A DNA stretch of 64,000 bases from Hydra vulgaris (lineage: Eukaryota > Cnidaria > Hydrozoa > Anthoathecata > Hydridae). Location of the stretch: contig NC_088932.1 of the NCBI RefSeq assembly GCF_038396675.1, forward strand, positions 22,846,001 to 22,910,000, read 5' to 3'. Within the stretch, counting starts at the first letter, position 1, and every line of letters starts with the position of its first letter. The position numbers and the translations under genes were made by a program. Shown here one piece after another: positions 8,268 through 61,800 of this stretch. The notes under the pieces were generated by a model. The model saw nothing but the letters and a program-made list of their open reading frames with translations, was not told the DNA's origin and did not search any database.

Positions 8268-9992
8268 TTACAAATAACAGTTAACGTTCGTTTTGTAGGA
8301 TATCAACGCGGCATTATTTTGAACAACGTACAAATCTTTCAACAATAAATTATTGTTTACACTGCTCTGAATACATTTATCGTAAATTATATCTCCAATT
8401 TCTCTTTCTTCAAATCTTTTAGTAATTTTTTGTTTTTTTTCTTCATTTTTATTAATATTGCTCATGCGGCTATTTAAATACACATTTATGTTATTATCAC
8501 TCGGTTGATTATTTTTACCAATATGATTCATAAATGCTAGTTTTGCAAAAAAAAACGTTAACGGAGATGCAATAAAACATGTACACAACACAAAAAAAGA
8601 AAATTTAGGGGAGCCTAAGCTCCCTAATGTACACAGCAAAGACCAAAAAGGTACATTTAATGTCTTGAAAACAATATACAAACATTGCCGAGGCATAGCT
8701 TTAAAGCTGCGATCACATTTTGCCCATTCAAACCAATATTTTTCTTGAGTTAAAAACCCGTAGAAAAATAGAAAAAAGTTTGCCATGCTAGCGCAAAAAA
8801 CTATCAATCCAGCATAACGAATACTAGTTATTGAACTTGCGTTACCTTTAGCTCCGTATTTTAAAATCATATTTCCGGCTAAAGGACATAAGCACGAAAA
8901 CGCAAGAAAGAATTTCTGCAAATACAGCGCTACAGTATTTATGGTACGAAATAAATGTAACACGCAGTGATTAACATACCAAAGTGTAGAAACCATAGCA
9001 AATGTTGCAAGAAACGTGTAAAACTCAGACTTCATATTTTCCAGCACATGTTTTAAACCCTTTTCAGACACTATATTGGAAGGTGGAAACTCATCCGTTG
9101 TTATATCCAGAATTAGAAGGCATGCTATGACTGCGACTGCTGCATCACTCATTACCTCAATGCGCTCGTTGGGTATGTTTCCTTTTGAAAAGAAGAAATA
9201 AAACTCATATTTTTCCATTTTTTTAGAAGTTTTCATTCGTCGACGAACATACAAAAATAAATTACGAATAGTTGGCATCAAAGTTAAAATAGCAATAAAT
9301 CCCCAAGAGACCGCGTAATGAACTAAACAAAGAACACCTCCAATAACAACTAAAACTAGACTTAACAAAGGTCTGATGAGAACTATATTCCGAAACCTAC
9401 GAAGTTCTGTTTTTGACCACGTTTGTATTTCTATATGAAGGGTTCTCGGTGTTTCAATTGCATAACAGATGAGTAGTATGTCTAATATTTGAATAAATCC
9501 CAAAACGCAACATGTTAAAATTATTGATACTTTTTCGGATGGATAATTGCCTTGAAGAGCCAAAGAAAATGGGAGAACAGTGGTAGCTAACATTTCCAAA
9601 ATAACAAAAGTCAAAACATAATCATCTACACGCTTTACCACCATTGTCCTTACGTTGATGTTTTCCCAAATGGTTAGTACAACGGCAAATCCCAAAAAAA
9701 ACATAATAAACTCCGCTTGCATATCATCAATAAAACTTGATAAAGCAAGTGTTTGGTTAGCGTTTGTAGTGTGTATCTTTTTTATCGGAATGACTAGAAA
9801 TGTTGCACACGTTGCCATTATGGAATCTGTGTAGCCAAGCATGCGGTCTGAAGAAACAATATCTCCAAGTTGCCGATTATCTGAGACCATTTTTGTAAGG
9901 TTTTCGTGAAAATAATCCGCTTTTTTTTTATCGGCTGTCATAATTTCAGTATTATCGGTGGAAACTCCGATGTCTTTTTTTAAATCAGACAT
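8268..9992 (-). CDS. TMEM175-like endolysosomal K+ channel
   Basis: The 574-residue protein has the two-repeat layout of TMEM175, a lysosomal/endosomal channel that conducts K+ (and, as reported, H+). Human TMEM175 is about 504 residues. Each repeat opens with the family motif RxxxFSD: here R50-MLGYTD56 and R277-IEVMSD283. About ten further hydrophobic segments follow, grouped as 57-70, 92-110, 122-145, 154-178 and 205-240 in repeat I, then 284-296, 325-346, 352-375, 392-414 and 436-482 in repeat II. The N-terminus (1-45) and the C-terminal tail (490-574) are hydrophilic; both are probably cytosolic. Aligned without gaps to the human pore helices, the constriction residues I46 and I271 correspond to T61 and V288, and T274 to C291, while T49 is kept (T64). 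The coding region has no intron. The ATG is chosen because it is the first in frame and lies just after an acceptor-like site. Base composition is less AT-rich than the flanks, as expected for a constrained gene. Confidence 0.9.
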   Translation of the reverse strand: MSDLKKDIGVSTDNTEIMTADKKKADYFHENLTKMVSDNRQLGDIVSSDRMLGYTDSIMATCATFLVIPIKKIHTTNANQTLALSSFIDDMQAEFIMFFLGFAVVLTIWENINVRTMVVKRVDDYVLTFVILEMLATTVLPFSLALQGNYPSEKVSIILTCCVLGFIQILDILLICYAIETPRTLHIEIQTWSKTELRRFRNIVLIRPLLSLVLVVIGGVLCLVHYAVSWGFIAILTLMPTIRNLFLYVRRRMKTSKKMEKYEFYFFFSKGNIPNERIEVMSDAAVAVIACLLILDITTDEFPPSNIVSEKGLKHVLENMKSEFYTFLATFAMVSTLWYVNHCVLHLFRTINTVALYLQKFFLAFSCLCPLAGNMILKYGAKGNASSITSIRYAGLIVFCASMANFFLFFYGFLTQEKYWFEWAKCDRSFKAMPRQCLYIVFKTLNVPFWSLLCTLGSLGSPKFSFFVLCTCFIASPLTFFFAKLAFMNHIGKNNQPSDNNINVYLNSRMSNINKNEEKKQKITKRFEEREIGDIIYDKCIQSSVNNNLLLKDLYVVQNNAALISYKTNVNCYL

Positions 9993-10025
9993 TTTTTATG
10001 AAAGCTAAAATAAGAATAACTTATA
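9993..10025 (-). promoter_or_regulatory. Splice or trans-splice acceptor before the channel gene
   Basis: On the coding strand, a T-rich tract ending TTCTTATTTTAG is followed after 12 bases (CTTTCATAAAAA) by the ATG. This fits a 3' splice acceptor. Hydra and other cnidarians add spliced leaders to many mRNAs, so it may be a trans-splice site. A short 5'UTR intron is the alternative; no upstream exon was identified. Confidence 0.5.
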
Positions 10026-26697: not shown

Positions 26698-26753
26698 AAA
26701 AATGGCAACTTTGAGCATCTGCTTCCCCGCAGATGCTCAAAGTTGCCATTTTT
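26698..26753. repeat. Perfect hairpin, 25-bp arms, 6-base loop
   Basis: The left arm (26698-26722) contains GGCAACTTTGAGCATCTGC and the right arm (26729-26753) is its exact reverse complement. The loop is TTCCCC. Confidence 0.97.
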
Positions 26754-27433
26754 TAAAGAACAATTATTTAGTGAAAAAGCAATAATTTCCTACTTTTATT
26801 TTATTTCTAAAACCGCAACTGTGAACTTCCATAATTATATATCAATCGAAAGAATATTAAACAGGCTTTCAGAGTTTATTGTAGAATATTTTATAAAACA
26901 TTTTGAAAACTTTTATAGAGTAGGAAATAATAGCACACTTAAATGTGACTTTTATTAAATTCTGTTTGTTTCTGTAAAAATCTGAATACGTATAGACAAA
27001 CTTCGACCCTTCCTCCTTTAATCCAATATAGGTTTTGATGCCGCCTGGACCCGCCCAAGAACAACTATTTTCAATTTAAAAATGTTTCTACTTAAATTGA
27101 TTTTTTTTTTTTTTTTACATTAAACATGACAGTCATTTTCAATCAAATTGTATAATATTGTCATAAAAAGATATATTTGTGGTAACTTTAAGATCTACTA
27201 TTAATATAATCTCAAAATACTTCCTTTAAATTAATACAACCTCAAAAGCTTCCGCAAGTTGAAAGAATTTACAAAAAATCTTATTGTCGATTTAAAATTG
27301 TGTAAATAAACAATAAAGTACAAATCGTCTTGAATGAAGTTAAAGAATAAAGATGTTATTTCTTTTATGACTGGTGATGTTATTAAAATGTCGGCATGTT
27401 TAAAATATTTGGAGAAGAAAAATGTTATGAAAA
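26754..27433. other. Spacer before the RAG1-like pseudogene
   Basis: The 71-codon frame at 26743-26958 is unrecognised. It contains FISKTATVNFHNYISIERIL and ends FYRVGNNSTLKCDFY, and is probably not a gene. The left end of the downstream transposon should lie here or further left, but no CACAGTG-like heptamer was found. Confidence 0.4.
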
Positions 27434-29465
27434 TTGAAGGTACTCAAGGAAAGAATTAGAAAGTTATTATTAACATTACAAACCATGTACAAACAAAAAA
27501 TGAAGAACGTTCAATACTCCAAGTATAAATTTCATAGAAAGTCAATTTCCTGGTTAGAACATAAATTTAATTTTGAATTTAAAGAAGTTATCTGGAAACT
27601 CTCAAACGTATTAGAAACGCCAGAATTAAAGAAAGGGCGGCATACATTGCCTTTTAAAAACAAAGGAAAACGAGCTAAAAGAATAGCAATTTCTAATCTG
27701 TCTGAAAAAGCTGAATATGGTACAAAGTATATACTCGAAACAGCCAGATACACAGTCAAACAAATATGTAATAAGAACTTAGAAAAAATTATCATGTGCA
27801 TTTTACAAGATCAACAATTGTCATATGATATCAATAAAAACATTGACAAAGAAATGAAAATAATGACTCTAGAAGAGGGACTTCTAGGACTTTTCTATTA
27901 AGTTATGGTTTTACTGAATCTCAGTACATGGAGATTAGATTGGAAAGTAAAGAGAGAGGTGTAGATATTTATCCGCTTTTTCAGCGATATTCTAGAATCT
28001 AAAACCAGATAATATGCACATCTCTGAAAAGGAGTCAAATGCGTCATTACAAAGTTTTCTAATACGTACTGTTTAAAGAATAGAAGAATCACAAGCGGCG
28101 CAAATTATATTTAAAATTACTAATAAAGAAAAGGACTCAATTAAGTTGATTTTTGTTGTAATTTGAGTATTTGATGGAGCCAGTAATTTTTCCCAATTTA
28201 ATCAAAAGTTTAAAGTGTTATTTAAAAGTTTATCAGACGATTCGCTTTTTTATGTTACCATTGTACCCTTAAGACTTCAAACATATGACTGGGATGTGTA
28301 TTGGGCAAACCCAACACCTAATTCTATTAGATTTTGCAGACCAATGATCTTAGAGTATGCTAAAAAATGTAAAGAATTTATTTTCGCAATAAAATTTTTT
28401 GTTGAACGACATATAAATGAACTTTCTGATATTATAATATGGCTACCAAATGGAAAAGTTCTTAATATCAAAAGCTCTTTATTTTTAACAGCCTATGATA
28501 GAAAAGTTTTAGCGGAAATCACTAAAATCCGTCTTATATATTGTGCCCGCTTTGTAAAGCAACACCTACTGAAATGAGTCACATTAAAAACTACACAAAC
28601 AAGTTATTTAGCACTGAGAAAGCATTTTTACTCTTTGGAATCAGTCCACTTTATTGCTGGATCCGTTTCATGGAATATCTCCTTTATTTGTCGTACAAGT
28701 TGAATATTAGACAATGGCAGGCAAAAGGAAAAATAAATAAAGGTTATGTAAAAGCTCGAAAAAGTCTAATACAAAAAGGTTTTAGGAAAAGTTAAATTTA
28801 CACGTAGACAAACCCCATCCAGTTGGCACTGGTTTATCTAATAATGGCAATACTGCACGGCGAGCTTTTTCTGATCCAATATTGTTATCAGAAATTTTGG
28901 ATAAAGATGTAAATCTTATTGTCCATTTAAGAACAGTATCAATATGTTTGTCTTGTCAAATTTCAATTGATCCAATCAAATTTGAAAATTATTGTCTACA
29001 AACAGTTTTAATTATCAATGAAAAATATTCATGGTATAAAATTCTTACTTGTGTTCATAAAAGTTTTAGCTCGTGGAGCTCAAATCATGATTGAATGTAT
29101 TAATTGAATGATTGAATTAATTTTGCCAGTTGAAACTTTTGGCAAAAATGCTGGAGAAAGTCTTCGCAAATGTCATAGAAAAGATCGTATGGATCATGCA
29201 AGAAAAAAATCAAGAATTAACAACAGAACTGATCTTTTTTGTCAAGGTTTAGAGAAATCAGATCCTTATATTTCCAGTATTATTTTAAAAAGTCGTTTGA
29301 AGTCTGTATTCAGTATTACCAGAAGAGTTGTTGCAACTTTTACTGATTAAAAATTACGCAAGAAGTAAGAATGTTAATGAAGAGTTACCTGAACTAAATG
29401 ATGTTTATCGAGAAATAGATTGCGTTAATATAGAAGCCGATAGCAGTTTATCCGATAGCGAATAA
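27434..29465 (+). pseudogene. RAG1/Transib-like transposase, broken
   Basis: Pieces in several frames run in RAG1-core order. 27434-27901 is a basic N-terminal part with KGRHTLPFKNKGKRAKR. An Asp in FDGASNFSQF (codon 28173-28175) comes next, then YDRKVLAEI with Asp at 28497-28499. A CPLC finger (codons from 28544, after a one-base shift) follows, then SPLYCWIRFMEYLLYLSYKL, DNGNTARRAF-like sequence (about 28840-28870), an HK pair followed by GAQIM (29050-29090), and AGESLRK with a Glu at 29156-29158. The open frame from 28173 to 28577 puts the two Asp residues 108 apart, the same as D600 to D708 of RAG1. RAG1-family enzymes use a DDE triad to cut next to CACAGTG heptamers. Frameshifts near 27900, 28540, 28795, 29060 and 29100, plus several stops, make this copy non-functional. 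The tail ends SSLSDSE then TAA at about 29465. Confidence 0.75.
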
Positions 29466-29702
29466 ATACTCAGCTATAACTACGAAATTTACTTTTAATT
29501 AAAACAAATCGAAACCATTATTATTAAATGATATCAGTTCTTCTATTTTGCATGTTTTTTCTTATTCCGTGGAAGCGCCAAGTGGTCTAAAAAGAAAAAT
29601 TCTTTCAGAACATCAAAATATGACTAATTTGCAACAACCACAACACTTTATATCGGATTTTCGCAAATCTTGAATTAATGCCACTTTTTGATTATTTTAA
29701 AC

Positions 29703-29709
29703 CACTGTG
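29703..29709 (-). repeat. Possible right terminus of the RAG1-like element
   Basis: CACTGTG (CACAGTG on the minus strand) lies 240 bases past the pseudogene. On the minus strand it is followed by an 18-base A/T-rich spacer and then GTGGCATTAA, similar in layout to the left end of the element at 10129. The candidate 5-bp duplication is CAGTG (29710-29714); no left partner was found. Confidence 0.35.
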
Positions 29710-29757
29710 CAGTGGGTAGAAGCTAATGAAAATTGGTAGCTAGATCTTACACCTATC

Positions 29758-29805
29758 TTTTGATACCAAGTTATAGTCTTAAAAGACTATAACTTGGTAT
29801 CAAAA
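29758..29805. repeat. Perfect palindrome, 23-bp arms
   Basis: TTTTGATACCAAGTTATAGT plus CTT is followed after two A residues by its exact reverse complement. Confidence 0.97.
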
Positions 29806-29969: not shown

Positions 29970-30646
29970 TGTCAGGTCAGGTTATCCTGCTACTGGTAAC
30001 CTGTAACATAGTACAATCTGCTTCATGTCCTGCTGCCTTGTAGGATACTCCTTTTTAGGCAAAGGCTAGGAGATGCCAATTCCGACTTAAAACACCCCCT
30101 GTCTTGGTTGAGTAAAGATTAGAGATGGTGTATCGATAAAAATACTCATCTTGGGTAGATGTTAAATTGCATCCGGCTACTGTCTTGTAGAAGGCCTCCT
30201 AGGCAAGGACTTAAGGGGTAAACAGATTCTATCTGTTGACCAGCTTCGCACCCCTTCTTCATCTATTAGGCTGGTGCAGATGTATTTTTAATACATTGTT
30301 TCCAGTTTAGGATGTTAAATGCTGGATCTTTTTGATTCAATGCATGAGTTTTGCTTGTGTCTCTGTTTTTATGACAGGCAACTCATTCTATTATCTCCTA
30401 ATGAGGGTACAGCTCTAAAACTCAGTTTTATGGCTCTGAGGCCAGCTGGTAGTCAGGTTTCCCGAACTCTGTGATAGCTCTCAGAGAGGCTGATTTCAGC
30501 CTCTCTGAGCCATCGACAGCTGAAAAATATCAAAGTATTAACAGTACCATGTTGCGCATGAATGGTGTCCCTGTTTGTACTCTTGGTGTGCATTGCGGAG
30601 GCCACATTTGGAGCCCTTTGTTACGGCTTAGGGTTTATTAGTAGTA
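29970..30646 (+). promoter_or_regulatory. LINE 5' untranslated/promoter region
   Basis: About 680 bases of GC-richer sequence precede the first long frame. It has an inverted pair AGCTCTCAGAGAGGCTGA / TCAGCCTCTCTGAG at 30475-30511. LINE promoters usually lie in such 5' regions; function here is inferred from position. Confidence 0.45.
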
Positions 30647-33629
30647 ATGAGGCAATTGCTTGGGCTATTAAACGGTGTTCTGAGTACTATCTATGCTTTA
30701 AGTCAAGTTCTTCAATCTAATTTTAAAATGAATAAAGTACCAAAAACTATAAAACACAAAAAACCATCATCATCACCAAGTTCTCTAAACCTATCGTTCA
30801 CTAATATTCGTGGTCTTCGAAGTAACTTTACTTCTGTTGAGTCTTATCTCTTGCAAAGTTCACCAGACCTACTTGCTCTTTGTGAGACTAATTTGAGTTC
30901 AGCTGTCTTATCTTTCGATCTTAGTGTTGATGGTTATCTTCCTTTAATTCGTAAAGACTCCAATAATCAAATGCTTGGCCTGGGCATTTACATTCGTAAA
31001 AATTCACCCATTTGTCATGAAACTAGATTTGAATCCACAGACTATTCTTTCATGTGCTTTCGTTTAGCACCACTTCACTCTATTGCCTTTCTATTTGTTC
31101 TATATCGCTCTCCTTCATCTCAAGACTGCACTCTTTTTGATGTTATTTCTGATCATATTGACCAAGCCCTCTCTCTTTATCCATCAGCTAATATAGTTGT
31201 TGTCGGTGACTTTAATGCTCACCATTCTGAATGGTTTGGCTCTAGTGTCAGTGACTCTGCACGCTTTAAAGCCCACAACTTTTGCCTTTCACAATCCCTA
31301 ACTCAAATAGTCAACTTTCCAACTCGCTTTCCAGACAGCCCGAATCATTTACCTTCTCTACTCGACTTATGTCTTGTTTCTGATCCTAGTCAGTGCTCAG
31401 TTTCTCCACATTCACCCTTAGGTGCTTTTGATCACAGTTTGATCTCTCTAAAACTATTATCTCATTCTTCTTCATCACCTGAATCCCCCTATTATTGAAT
31501 TTCTTACAACTACAGTAAAGCTAACTGGGATTCTTTCCGTGATTTTCTTTGTGATGGCCCTTGGGTAGAAATCTTTTGTCTTCCTGTCGACAAATGCGCA
31601 TCTTACATAACTTCATGGATTCAGGTTGGCGTAGAATTTTTTGTTCCCTCTCAACAATTCCTAGTCAAGCCTCACTCTCCTCCATGGTTTTCCTCACACT
31701 GTGCTGCTGCAATTGCCAATCGAAACCGTGACTTCCATATTTATCAGCAAAACAATTCTCCAGAAAACAGACGTCTGTTTATTACTGCTAAAAACTATTG
31801 TAAAATAGATTTTGTCTAAAGCCAAAGCCTGCTATTCTCAGGTCATGAAATCTCGCATCTCATCTCTAAAGTTAAGCTCTCGAGACTTCTGGAGAATCTT
31901 TAATAGTATCAATAATAAGGGCAAATCTTTAACTCCACCTCTCTTGTATGGTTCAGACTTTGTCACCTCACCTAAATCCAAAGCTGAATTATTTGCTTAA
32001 AACTTTTCATCAATATCATCTCTTGATTCCACTAGTTGCGTTCTACCTGATATTGCCAACAAACAGGTTGATCCATTGCTTGACATTCGTATCACTCCAG
32101 CTTCTGTATCTAAAGTGATTTCGTGCCTAGACTCTTCTAAAGCTTGTGGCCCGGACAACATACCTGTTATTGTCTTGCAGAAGTGTTCTCCGGAGCTGTC
32201 GTCTATACTCTCAAAACTATTCAACAAGTGCTTATCAGAGTCTTGATTTCCAGCCTGCTGGAAAGCGGGATTTATTATCCCTATCTTTAAAAATTCTGGA
32301 GAGCGATCTGGTTCGTCTAACTACCGACCCATTAGTCTTCTTCCTATCATAATATTTTTAAATCTTTAATTAACAAACACTTAATCTCTCATCTTGAATC
32401 TAATAACTTACTTTCTGACCATCAATATGGATTTCGATCTTCTTGTTCTACAGCTGATTTGCTAACAGTAATAACTGATAAGTTTTATCGTGCATTAGAT
32501 AAAGGTGGAGAGGTTAAGGTCATTGCTCTTGACATTTCAAAAGGTTTTGATAAAGTTTGGCATGCTGATCTTCTCCGTAAGCTTTCTTCTTATGGTGTAT
32601 CTGGCAACATCTTTAAGATTATTGAATCCTTCATTTCCAATCGTAGCATAAAAGTTGTCCTTGATGGACAGCACTCTTCTTCTTATTCTGTAACTTCAAT
32701 GGTTCCTCAAGGTTCTATCCTTGGCCCTATACTCTTTTTAATTTATATCAACGATCTTCCAGATATTCTCACATCTAAGGTGAAATTGTTTGCTGATGAT
32801 ACTACTATTTATTCTTGTCGTGATAAGAAACCAACACTCATGATTGCTTGGAGGGGGCATTTGAGCTTGAAATGGATATCACTTCAGCTACAGCATGGGA
32901 CTCACAGTGGCTGGTGAACTTCAATACAGATAAAACTCAATTTTTTTCAGCCAATCGTTATCGCAATAATTTAGATCTTCCTATATTTATGAACGGTGAT
33001 GTACTCGATGAGTCATCTACTCTTCATCTTCTAGGATTAACTCTTACTTCCAATCTCTGTTGGAAACCATATATCAAATCAGTTGAAAAATTAACATCTG
33101 CTAAGGTTGCATCTCTTTATCGAGCTCATCACTTTCTTACTTCGGATTCTATTCTCTATCTCTATAAATCTCAAATCCGACCTTGTATGGAATACTGTAC
33201 CATATCTGGGGCGGATCTTCTAACGATGGCCTTTCTCTTTTAGACAAGATGCAAAAACGCATTGTAATCATAGTTGGACCTGCTCTTGCAGCCAACCTCC
33301 AACCATTATCACATTTTCGTAATGTTGCTTCTTTTTCTCTTTTCTACAAATACTATAATGGGCACTGCTCTAAAGAGCTAGCGTCTCTTGTGCCATCTAC
33401 TAAAGTTCATTCTCGTATTACTCGTTATTCAATTAAGTCTCATCCTTTTTCTGTGGCTGTTCCTAAGTGCTCCAAAAACGCTTATTCGTCTAGTTTTTTT
33501 CCTCGAACATCAGCTCTTTTGAATTTGCTTCCTTCATCTTGTTTTCCTGATTCATTTAATTTTCAATCCTTTAAGTTGTCCGTCAATCGTTATCTTGCTC
33601 TACAATATTCATCTTTTCTTTTTCAGTAA
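30647..33629 (+). pseudogene. LINE endonuclease-reverse transcriptase, frameshifted
   Basis: The first frame (30647-31498, 283 codons) is an apurinic-type endonuclease: FTNIRGLRSN (51-60), catalytic-type E80 in LCETN, GDFNAHHSEWF (187-197) and AFDHSLIS (260-267). It nicks target DNA to prime reverse transcription. After TGA at 31496-31498 the same frame continues to about 31804, then shifts. RT fingers follow (SKACGPDNIPVIVLQKC near 32130; [10 protein letters not shown] near 32310). Next come palm motif A DISKGFDKVWH, motif B PQGSILGPILFLIYINDLP and motif C KLFADDTTIYS in 32459-32840. The thumb/C-terminal part lies in 32848-33230 and 33183-33629. Lesions are in-frame stops at 31496, 31998 and about 32246, and frameshifts near 31804, 32350, 32840 and 33200. 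Identity is clear, but this copy cannot encode the whole enzyme. Confidence 0.9.
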
Positions 33630-57150: not shown

Positions 57151-59741
<2,591 letters not shown>

Positions 59742-60345
59742 GCCTGCAATTGCATTAAAAAATCTCTTTGTCCACTGAACAACAATTGCTTGTCTAACAA
59801 TATCGTTTACCAAGCCACCGTAAGCTCAAACAAACCTCAATACAACGATAAAGTATACATTGGGATAAGTGAAACCTCATTTAAGCTACGTTATGCGAAC
59901 CATCAAAAATCTTTTACATATAAAAAAATACAAAAACGACACTGAATTGTCTAAGGAAGTATGGGAGTTAAAAGAAAACAATTTTACAACTTCAATCAAA
60001 TGGAAAATTATTAAACGCTGTAAATCATACAATCCTGCGTCAAAAATTTGTAAGCTTTGTTTAAATGAGAAATTCGAAATATTGTTTTACAAAGGGAAAA
60101 ATCTGCTAAACAAAAGAGGTGAATTAGTTTCTAAATGCAGACACAAAAATAAATTTCTCCTTTCATTATTTGATAACGGAGATTAGTTTTCCATTACGTC
60201 TTCTTGTAATATAACGTCAGAACTCATTCTACCGTAGTTTGTAATTTTTAAACGGTTTTTTATATTTTTGATTTTCTACTTCATGGCTGATGATTGCCGA
60301 TAGGCATGAAACTTGAAGTTCCATTAAAAGTTGTTTTTTCTAATA

Positions 60346-60512: not shown

Positions 60513-61800
60513 CAGGTAACCAAAAAAGCTCGTGCGGTTTTTCCGTATATAATAAAAACACACAAAACGACAAAAGTAAGTACATTTATTCATCAAAATA
60601 GTCACCATTAGCATCTAAAACCTTTTCCCAACGTAAAACAAGCTTATTTATTCCACTTCTAAAAAATTTTCGGTCCTTTGAGTCTATAAAAGCTTTCAAC
60701 TCCATTTTAACCGCGTCCTGGTCTCGGAACTGCTGTCCTTTTAAATGATTTCCCAGGGAAAGGAAAAAATGGAAATCAGTAGGGGAGAGGTCTGGCGAGT
60801 ATGGTGGATGAGGCAAACTCTCCCAAACAAGGCTTTGGAGCTTGTCCTGAGTCACGCGAGCGGTGTGCGGTCTCGCATTGTCGTAGAGAAGCAGAACTCC
60901 TCTCCTGTGCACCAGTGCAGGCTGCTTTACAAGCAACAGGTCGTGAACTCGTTGCAGCTGTGCTGAGTAGACCAGTCCAGTAATGGTTTGGCCTGTTGGG
61001 AGCAGCTCGTAATGCACCAGACCAGCTGTAGTCCACCAAATGCAGAGCAAAACCTTCCGCTCGTGGAGATTGGGCTTGGGTGTCTTTGGGATGGGGTCAT
61101 CGGGGGACAACCAATGGTAGCAACGCTTGGTATTGTTGTACACAATCCATTTTTCGTCGCATGTCAATAAACGATCAAGAAAAGGCTCAACATTGTGGCG
61201 TGATAAGAGTGATGTGCAGATCGTAAGCCGTTGCTTCTTGTTGTCGATCGACAATTTGTGCGGAACCCACCGACTCAGGTTCCACGCTTTCCCAATCGCA
61301 TGCAGATGCAGGCGGATGGTATCAACACTCACAGCAAACCTCACTGCAAGTTCTTGGCAAGTTTGGCTGGAGTCAGACTCGACAGCGTCCTTCAGTTCAT
61401 CCTCATCAACCAACAATGGGCGTCCAGAACGCGGCAGGTCTTCGATGGACTCATCTCCCGAAGAGAATCGCTGAAACCACTTCTGTGCTGTGCGTTCACT
61501 TACTGTACCTTCTCCAAATGCTGTGCATATGTTTTTGGCCGCTTGTGTTGCATTCCTTCCAAGTTTGAACTCGTGAAGTAAGCAAGATCGAATAATTGTT
61601 GGTTGGGTTGCCATCCTTTCTATACACAAAACCTTTCCTGTAAGCTCGTTACAAGCCTACACTATATATGCAGCAACCGCGCGTGACACACGCGTTCTAT
61701 TACGCAACAAAGCTACTTGCCTTGTGCGATGTGGGTGTTGTAAAAAATGCTAAAAACAATTCAATTACCAAAAACCGCACGAACTTTTTTGGTTACCTAA
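60512..61800 (-). mobile_element. Intact mariner transposon, 1,289 bp
   Basis: Terminal inverted repeats of about 28 bp: left TCAGGTAACCAAAAAAGCTC, right (inverted) TTAGGTAACCAAAAAAGTTC, each continuing GTGCGGTTTTT. TA flanks both ends (60510-60511 and 61801-61802), as expected for Tc1/mariner. The surrounding DNA is a (TA)n array, an obvious target. The interior is far more GC-rich than the rest of the window. Confidence 0.95.
60586..61614 (-). CDS. Mariner transposase (DD34D)
   Basis: Uninterrupted frame of 342 codons from the chosen start ([10 protein letters not shown]; an in-frame ATG five codons upstream at 61629 is also possible), close to the usual mariner length of about 345. The N-terminal part holds two helix-turn-helix regions that bind the terminal repeats: [20 protein letters not shown], then [20 protein letters not shown] with the GRP linker (LPRSGRP), then [20 protein letters not shown]. 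The catalytic core has [25 protein letters not shown] and [13 protein letters not shown]. Exactly 34 residues separate the second and third Asp, giving the mariner DD34D triad. WVPHKLS matches the mariner WVPHEL signature, and the C-terminus GDYFDE resembles GSYFD. No stop, frameshift or missing catalytic residue is visible. The enzyme cuts and pastes the element at TA. Confidence 0.95.

Follow-up and report, generated by a model that had tools for sequence, protein, structure and literature searches.

The window analysed here, a 64,000-nucleotide stretch of Hydra vulgaris contig NC_088932.1, contains on its forward strand the probable remnant of a Transib transposon at 26698-29709 (+), which is truncated at its left end but retains its right terminus, and which encloses a broken transposase gene at 27431-29465 (+). 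The remnant was delimited by its terminus motif and by its homology to other genomic copies, which extends from about 26720 to 29706-29721, and the element thus reaches beyond the interval of the original prediction (27434-29465). Downstream lie the remains of a non-LTR retrotransposon (30632-33629, +), with matches to endonuclease (PF03372, 4.6e-14) and reverse transcriptase (PF00078, 1.3e-25) domains, and a perfect 23-bp inverted repeat with a 2-nt loop (29758-29805) is located about 50 bp past the right end of the element. A 356-codon open frame at 60586-61656 (-) carries Mos1-type mariner transposase domains (PF01359, 1.2e-22). Two identical, opposed 105-residue frames (58040-58357, -, and 59869-60186, +) surround a 409-residue frame that gave no Pfam match at E ≤ 1, and the whole arrangement (58040-60186) gives the impression of what we take to be a Penelope-type element with inverted ends. 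A 575-residue frame at 8268-9995 (-), containing two TMEM175 potassium-channel stretches (PF06736, 2.7e-20), is possibly a host gene.

The limits of the transposase gene were set by homology and by three-frame translation of 27301-29700, in which the gene is split among three frames, with stops both between and within the pieces, in agreement with its original description as a relic. The blocks that had been named in it (FDGASNF, YDRKVLAEI, CPLC, GNTARRAF, HK, GAQIM and AGESLRK) are all found on the + strand where they had been placed. The first catalytic-type Asp codon (GAT, 28173-28175, +), in FDGASNF, is aligned with FDGAS of HzTransib, which we take to be the Transib transposase of Helicoverpa zea, and is placed by a profile of family members on the Asp of DGMGD in amphioxus RAG1L. 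The second (GAT, 28497-28499, +), in YDRKVLAEI, is aligned with MIDGK of HzTransib and placed by the profile on the YDEK Asp of RAG1. Both codons share a single open frame (28167-28577) and are exactly 108 codons apart, as had been claimed. The CxxC zinc-type pair (CPLC, 28544-28555, +) was identified from the translation and the HzTransib alignment, and the GNTARRAF block lies within a frame at 28786-29094 (+). In the HxxxxH zinc-type pair (29056-29074, +), the first His codon is CAT at 29056, while the second is replaced by Arg (CGT at 29072), as had been noted, leaving the zinc ligand set of the window copy incomplete; this His is kept in 5/5 other alignment rows covering the position. GAQIM and AGESLRK both belong to the frame beginning at 29063 (+), and the catalytic-type Glu codon (GAA in AGES, 29156-29158, +) corresponds in the HzTransib alignment to the Glu within SEEASEARNK, and is placed by the profile on SEGNESGNK of RAG1. 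It follows the second Asp by 659 nt, or 219.7 codons, matching the distance of about 220 residues given earlier. The Asp/Asp/Glu residues matched in RAG1 are presumably D600, D708 and E962. The D/D/E and CxxC/HxxxxH residues expected of a Transib transposase are found at homologous places, apart from the changed zinc ligand.

The relationships of the gene were studied by searches against all PDB sequences with phmmer, for which the window pieces were joined into a read-through, with X at stops. Only two rows had E ≤ 10, namely HzTransib at 2.3e-52, with residues 151-619 of its 641 aligned to the read-through, and gamma-glutamyl hydrolase at 0.76; RAG1 chains were absent within this threshold. 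The single open piece containing both Asp residues gave a similar outcome (HzTransib at 5.1e-10, followed by gamma-glutamyl hydrolase from 0.14), and L029, an unbroken relative in the same genome with 667 codons between stops, matched HzTransib at 5.6e-90 and RAG1 from 0.00083. Five of the seven window pieces match L029 in the correct order at E ≤ 0.004, four of these at ≤ 1e-7; the first and last pieces gave no match to L029. A seven-row profile was built from the window, L012, L029, L031, L033 (two pieces) and L030, and searched against the PDB sequences. Sixteen rows were obtained at E ≤ 10, with HzTransib at the top (4.7e-126, 425.1 bits), followed by one row of amphioxus RAG1L (1.6e-7, 34 bits) and 13 rows of vertebrate RAG1 (best 2e-6, 30.0 bits). 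The sixteenth row, centromere protein U (E = 0.006), is taken as a chance match; the other 15/16 are HzTransib, RAG1L or RAG1, and no other DDE superfamily appeared. By contrast with the PDB searches, a Pfam scan of three window pieces matched no Transib model, its best row being a chance match (E = 0.081), and a scan of five sequences from relatives likewise matched none, apart from chance matches and a weak RAG1 match in L033 that lies below the curated cut-off (E = 0.00092, 17.9 bits vs 25). Because the Pfam searches matched no Transib model, the Transib placement rests on the PDB sequences. These comparisons indicate homology far beyond chance, and argue that the branch is Transib and not RAG1-like.

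The same ordered blocks and D/D/E frame occur in RAG1, and the profile does match both RAG1L and RAG1, as might be expected of a relic of a RAG1-like transposon (RAGL/ProtoRAG type) that is nearer to RAG1 than to Transib and has lost its RAG2-like partner; PMC7204232 reports such RAGL pairs from other cnidarians. This reading is nevertheless very improbable, since the profile scores HzTransib at 425 bits vs 34 for RAG1L and 30 for RAG1, the window copy is without a RAG1 match at E ≤ 10, and the 2.4-kb element body is mostly transposase, with scant room for a second gene in copies that lack long inserts. The link to the RAG1/Transib group that had been drawn from the ordered blocks therefore stands for the family, through the DDE residues and the HzTransib match, but not for the RAG1-like branch.

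The catalytic spacings bear on the same question. The Asp-Asp interval is 108 residues in the window, 114 in L029 and 99 in HzTransib (counted on the read-through alignment), and the amphioxus RAG1L residues D701 and D811, given in a passage of PMC7204232, correspond to an interval of 110. Because the interval varies within the RAG1/Transib group, a value of 108 is not diagnostic of a branch; the RAG1 spacing, which had been offered as a family mark, fails as such, and its equality in the window is taken as chance. Spacing equality of this kind is a poor guide to branch within the group. From the second Asp to the Glu, the distance is 219.7 codons in the window, 213 in L012, 212 in L029 and 211 in HzTransib (our own count), part of the window distance being a short extra stretch present in this copy. 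This interval is Transib-like and not RAG1-like (254, the figure given in the original prediction).

Structure predictions were of limited use. The AlphaFold model of the two-Asp window piece had a mean pLDDT of 45.7, too poor to use, and that of L029 was of low confidence (mean pLDDT 53.6, pTM 0.32), with TM-scores to HzTransib of 0.24-0.26 by query and 0.34-0.35 by target. All eight PDB matches of this low-confidence L029 model at E ≤ 0.001 were to HzTransib (five) or RAG chains (three). In the same model, Asp 277 lies next to a strand that ends at 275, Asp 391 next to one that ends at 388, and Glu 603 next to a helix that starts at 599; these positions are as would be expected of a DDE fold, at a confidence too low to lean on.

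The element family was investigated by a protein search with the open two-Asp piece against the Hydra genome (911,502,276 bases in 15 contigs), giving at least 150 scored genomic matches from 2415 candidates, a few of the matches being two frames of one copy. Among these 150 rows, 12 have no stop in the match and an open frame of at least 400 residues (one row with a run of N being excluded, and N-runs having been checked in the fetched rows only). An apparent 1862-residue open frame among the matches was rejected, being mostly a run of N and no gene. The anatomy of the family was derived from the best 20 rows after the window itself, fetched with their flanks. An element body is common to 20/20 of these copies, with 81-93% identity to the window per aligned body piece. 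The fuller copies contain, in order, an outer arm of ~0.14 kb, an inner arm of ~0.42 kb, the transposase body of ~2.4 kb, a short unique piece, and then the inverted inner arm and the inverted outer arm, each complete arm totalling ~0.56 kb. The outer arm is present at both ends in 12/20 fetched copies, and a genome search with the outer arm of the window found at least 40 scored places, including its own, out of 181 candidates. Both ends were usable in 11 copies, of which 10 are 3.2-4.2 kb long and the eleventh, L019, one of several copies with longer inserts, is 5.25 kb long.

The ends of the family members are of the CAC..TG type, resembling the RSS heptamer, for which CACAGTG is the consensus. 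Exact CACAGTG, read inward, is present in 17/33 ends (those located with ≤7 differences in the 20 close copies), and also at the right end of the window copy. A search for an RSS nonamer in the window family gave a best match of 6/9, which was equalled by 7712 of 20000 shuffles. Target-site duplications were examined in the 11 copies whose ends were both usable, leaving out L012, whose two ends form one palindrome, and L015, whose second end is a poor match beside the first, and retaining L028 despite its irregular right end. The flanking 5-mers agree at 46/55 positions, vs a shuffled mean of 32.5, a level reached by 3 of 200000 shuffles; agreement is complete in four of the 11 pairs and falls to 3/5 positions in two. 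A 5-bp target-site duplication, characteristic of Transib, is therefore found at the level of the family.

The CxxC/HxxxxH insert is common to Transib and the related CMC/Chapaev group, while the target duplication is 4 bp in Chapaev and 2-3 bp in CACTA. Assignment of the element to the CMC/Chapaev group, which is joined with Transib in some schemes, would be in keeping with the shared insert and with the available nomenclature, as the Hydra genome paper writes ‘CMC-Transib’ (in the relevant portion of PMC12220107), and Transib, TransibSU, Chapaev and Chapaev3 form one superfamily in an excerpt of PMC4411706. The colinear match of about 470 residues to HzTransib, together with the 5-bp duplications and CACAGTG-type ends, makes this assignment exceedingly unlikely. 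Equally hard to credit is the proposal that the locus is a Transib-derived, domesticated host gene rather than a dead transposon. Domesticated relatives such as RAG1 do exist (as noted in part of PMC4411706), but the window copy has frame breaks and stops, a word search in the 20 closest copies found no stop-free family frame longer than 332 aa, and the copies are dispersed, with target duplications at their flanks.

We conclude that 26698-29709 is almost certainly a dead copy of a DNA transposon of the Transib superfamily, the comparison of sequences supporting in outline the original reading as a relic of a RAG1/Transib-type DDE transposase. The evidence for the element comprises homology of the broken gene to HzTransib, D/D/E and CxxC/HxxxxH residues in aligned positions, inverted repeats, CACAGTG-type ends and the 5-bp duplications of its relatives. 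The window copy is cut short on its left, close to where the outer and inner arm modules join. In place of the left outer arm is a foldback (26698-26722, unstranded), a 25-bp inverted copy of 26729-26753, 100% complementary to it and 6 nt apart. The same 25 bp is matched at 100% in 6/20 copies (L016, L017, L019, L020, L025 and L026), matches that are read as the ordinary arm sequence of those copies. The left inner terminal-repeat module (26729-27145, +) is present; relatives have it in inverted orientation at the opposite end. At the right end of the window copy, the inner module is deleted and the outer arm (29570-29712, +, on the module map, which includes 3 bases past the terminus) adjoins the body directly. 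The element terminus is CACTGTG at 29703-29709 (+), which is CACAGTG when read inward, and is followed by CAGTG (29710-29714, unstranded), a candidate target-site copy whose five letters are also found next to both ends of L009 and of L026. Its left partner is lost, and because the left terminus is missing, a target duplication of the window copy itself is not demonstrable.

Transib is the group of cut-and-paste DNA transposons from which RAG1, the vertebrate antibody-gene recombinase, descends. An intact element of the present family would encode one DDE (RNase H-fold) transposase, which would bind inverted repeats headed by CACAGTG, nick the DNA beside the heptamer and cut out the element, so that the flanking DNA would end in hairpins. 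Reinsertion elsewhere with a 5-bp stagger would then generate a 5-bp target copy on each side. Nicking, hairpin formation and pasting are inferred here from what is known of how HzTransib and RAG work biochemically (for background, see PMC7204232 and PMC8355894). The window copy is incapable of transposition because of a frame broken in several places, a substituted zinc ligand, the loss of the left terminus and the deletion of the right inner arm. Lacking both an intact gene and one of its termini, it is presumably dead, would hardly be movable even by an enzyme made elsewhere, and probably has no present function.

The Hydra genome also contains young Transib copies. L029, L030 and L032, which show 36-37% identity to the window piece, represent a Transib lineage other than that of the window copy. 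They are 3077-3083 bp long and 97.8-98.2% identical to one another, with exact CACAGTG at 6/6 ends and perfect 5-bp duplications in 3/3 (CGCCG, CGCTG and CGTCG, of the form CGYYG). Counted from the first Met, the open frames of L029 and L030 are 663 and 593 codons, while the long frame of L032 stops early, at 474. The arms of L029 are about 40 bp long and carry an A-rich nonamer-like word (8/9) 21 bp after CACAGTG; this word is not significant, since 1800 of 20000 shuffles equal it. Symmetric spacers of 20-22 bp are described for Transib ends in a section of PMC8355894. The subfamily of the window may conceivably, although this is a tentative suggestion and rather doubtful, be a Transib lineage that has not been separately described, with long two-module inverted repeats (~0.56 kb), which reached high copy number in Hydra and then died, while the short-repeat L029 group stayed young.

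Transib-group elements have been reported for Hydra and other cnidarians, and the element described here belongs to the same group. CMC-Transib is listed among 14 putatively active families in Hydra vulgaris, AEP, in a 2025 paper (PMC12220107), a listing with which the young L029/L030/L032 lineage is consistent, and Transibs are stated to occur in cnidarians in a passage of PMC7204232. Hydra magnipapillata is named in the legend of a superfamily tree in PMC4411706; this tree includes Chapaev, and the Hydra members may therefore belong to either clade. According to the same paper, an animal genome typically has a single autonomous Transib copy or a few of them, wording confined to autonomous elements and thus not in conflict with many broken copies in Hydra. 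A search of the literature found no published source for the exact subfamily. A Transib relic in Hydra is an ordinary instance of an already known kind, and that in the window is of little importance in itself, but is a useful positive control for the reading of decayed transposases by eye. The presence of Transib copies of differing age in one early-branching animal is convenient for studying the variation of RSS-like ends over time.

Compared with RAG1 and RAG1L (vertebrate RAG1; amphioxus ProtoRAG, PDB 6b40), the element shows the same DDE order and a weak but significant profile match, but is far more distant from them than from HzTransib, and its Asp-Glu spacing is shorter than that of RAG1. 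HzTransib (PDB 6pqn and kin) is the closest known system, sharing ~470 colinear residues, including the FDGAS, D(G/R)K, CxxC, GNTARR and HK blocks and the SEEASEA (HzTransib) or KNAGES block, with an Asp-Glu spacing of 211 vs 212 and 213 in two of the relatives; it differs in its Asp-Asp interval (99 vs 108 in the window), and from the window copy in that the latter is broken and has Arg for the second His.
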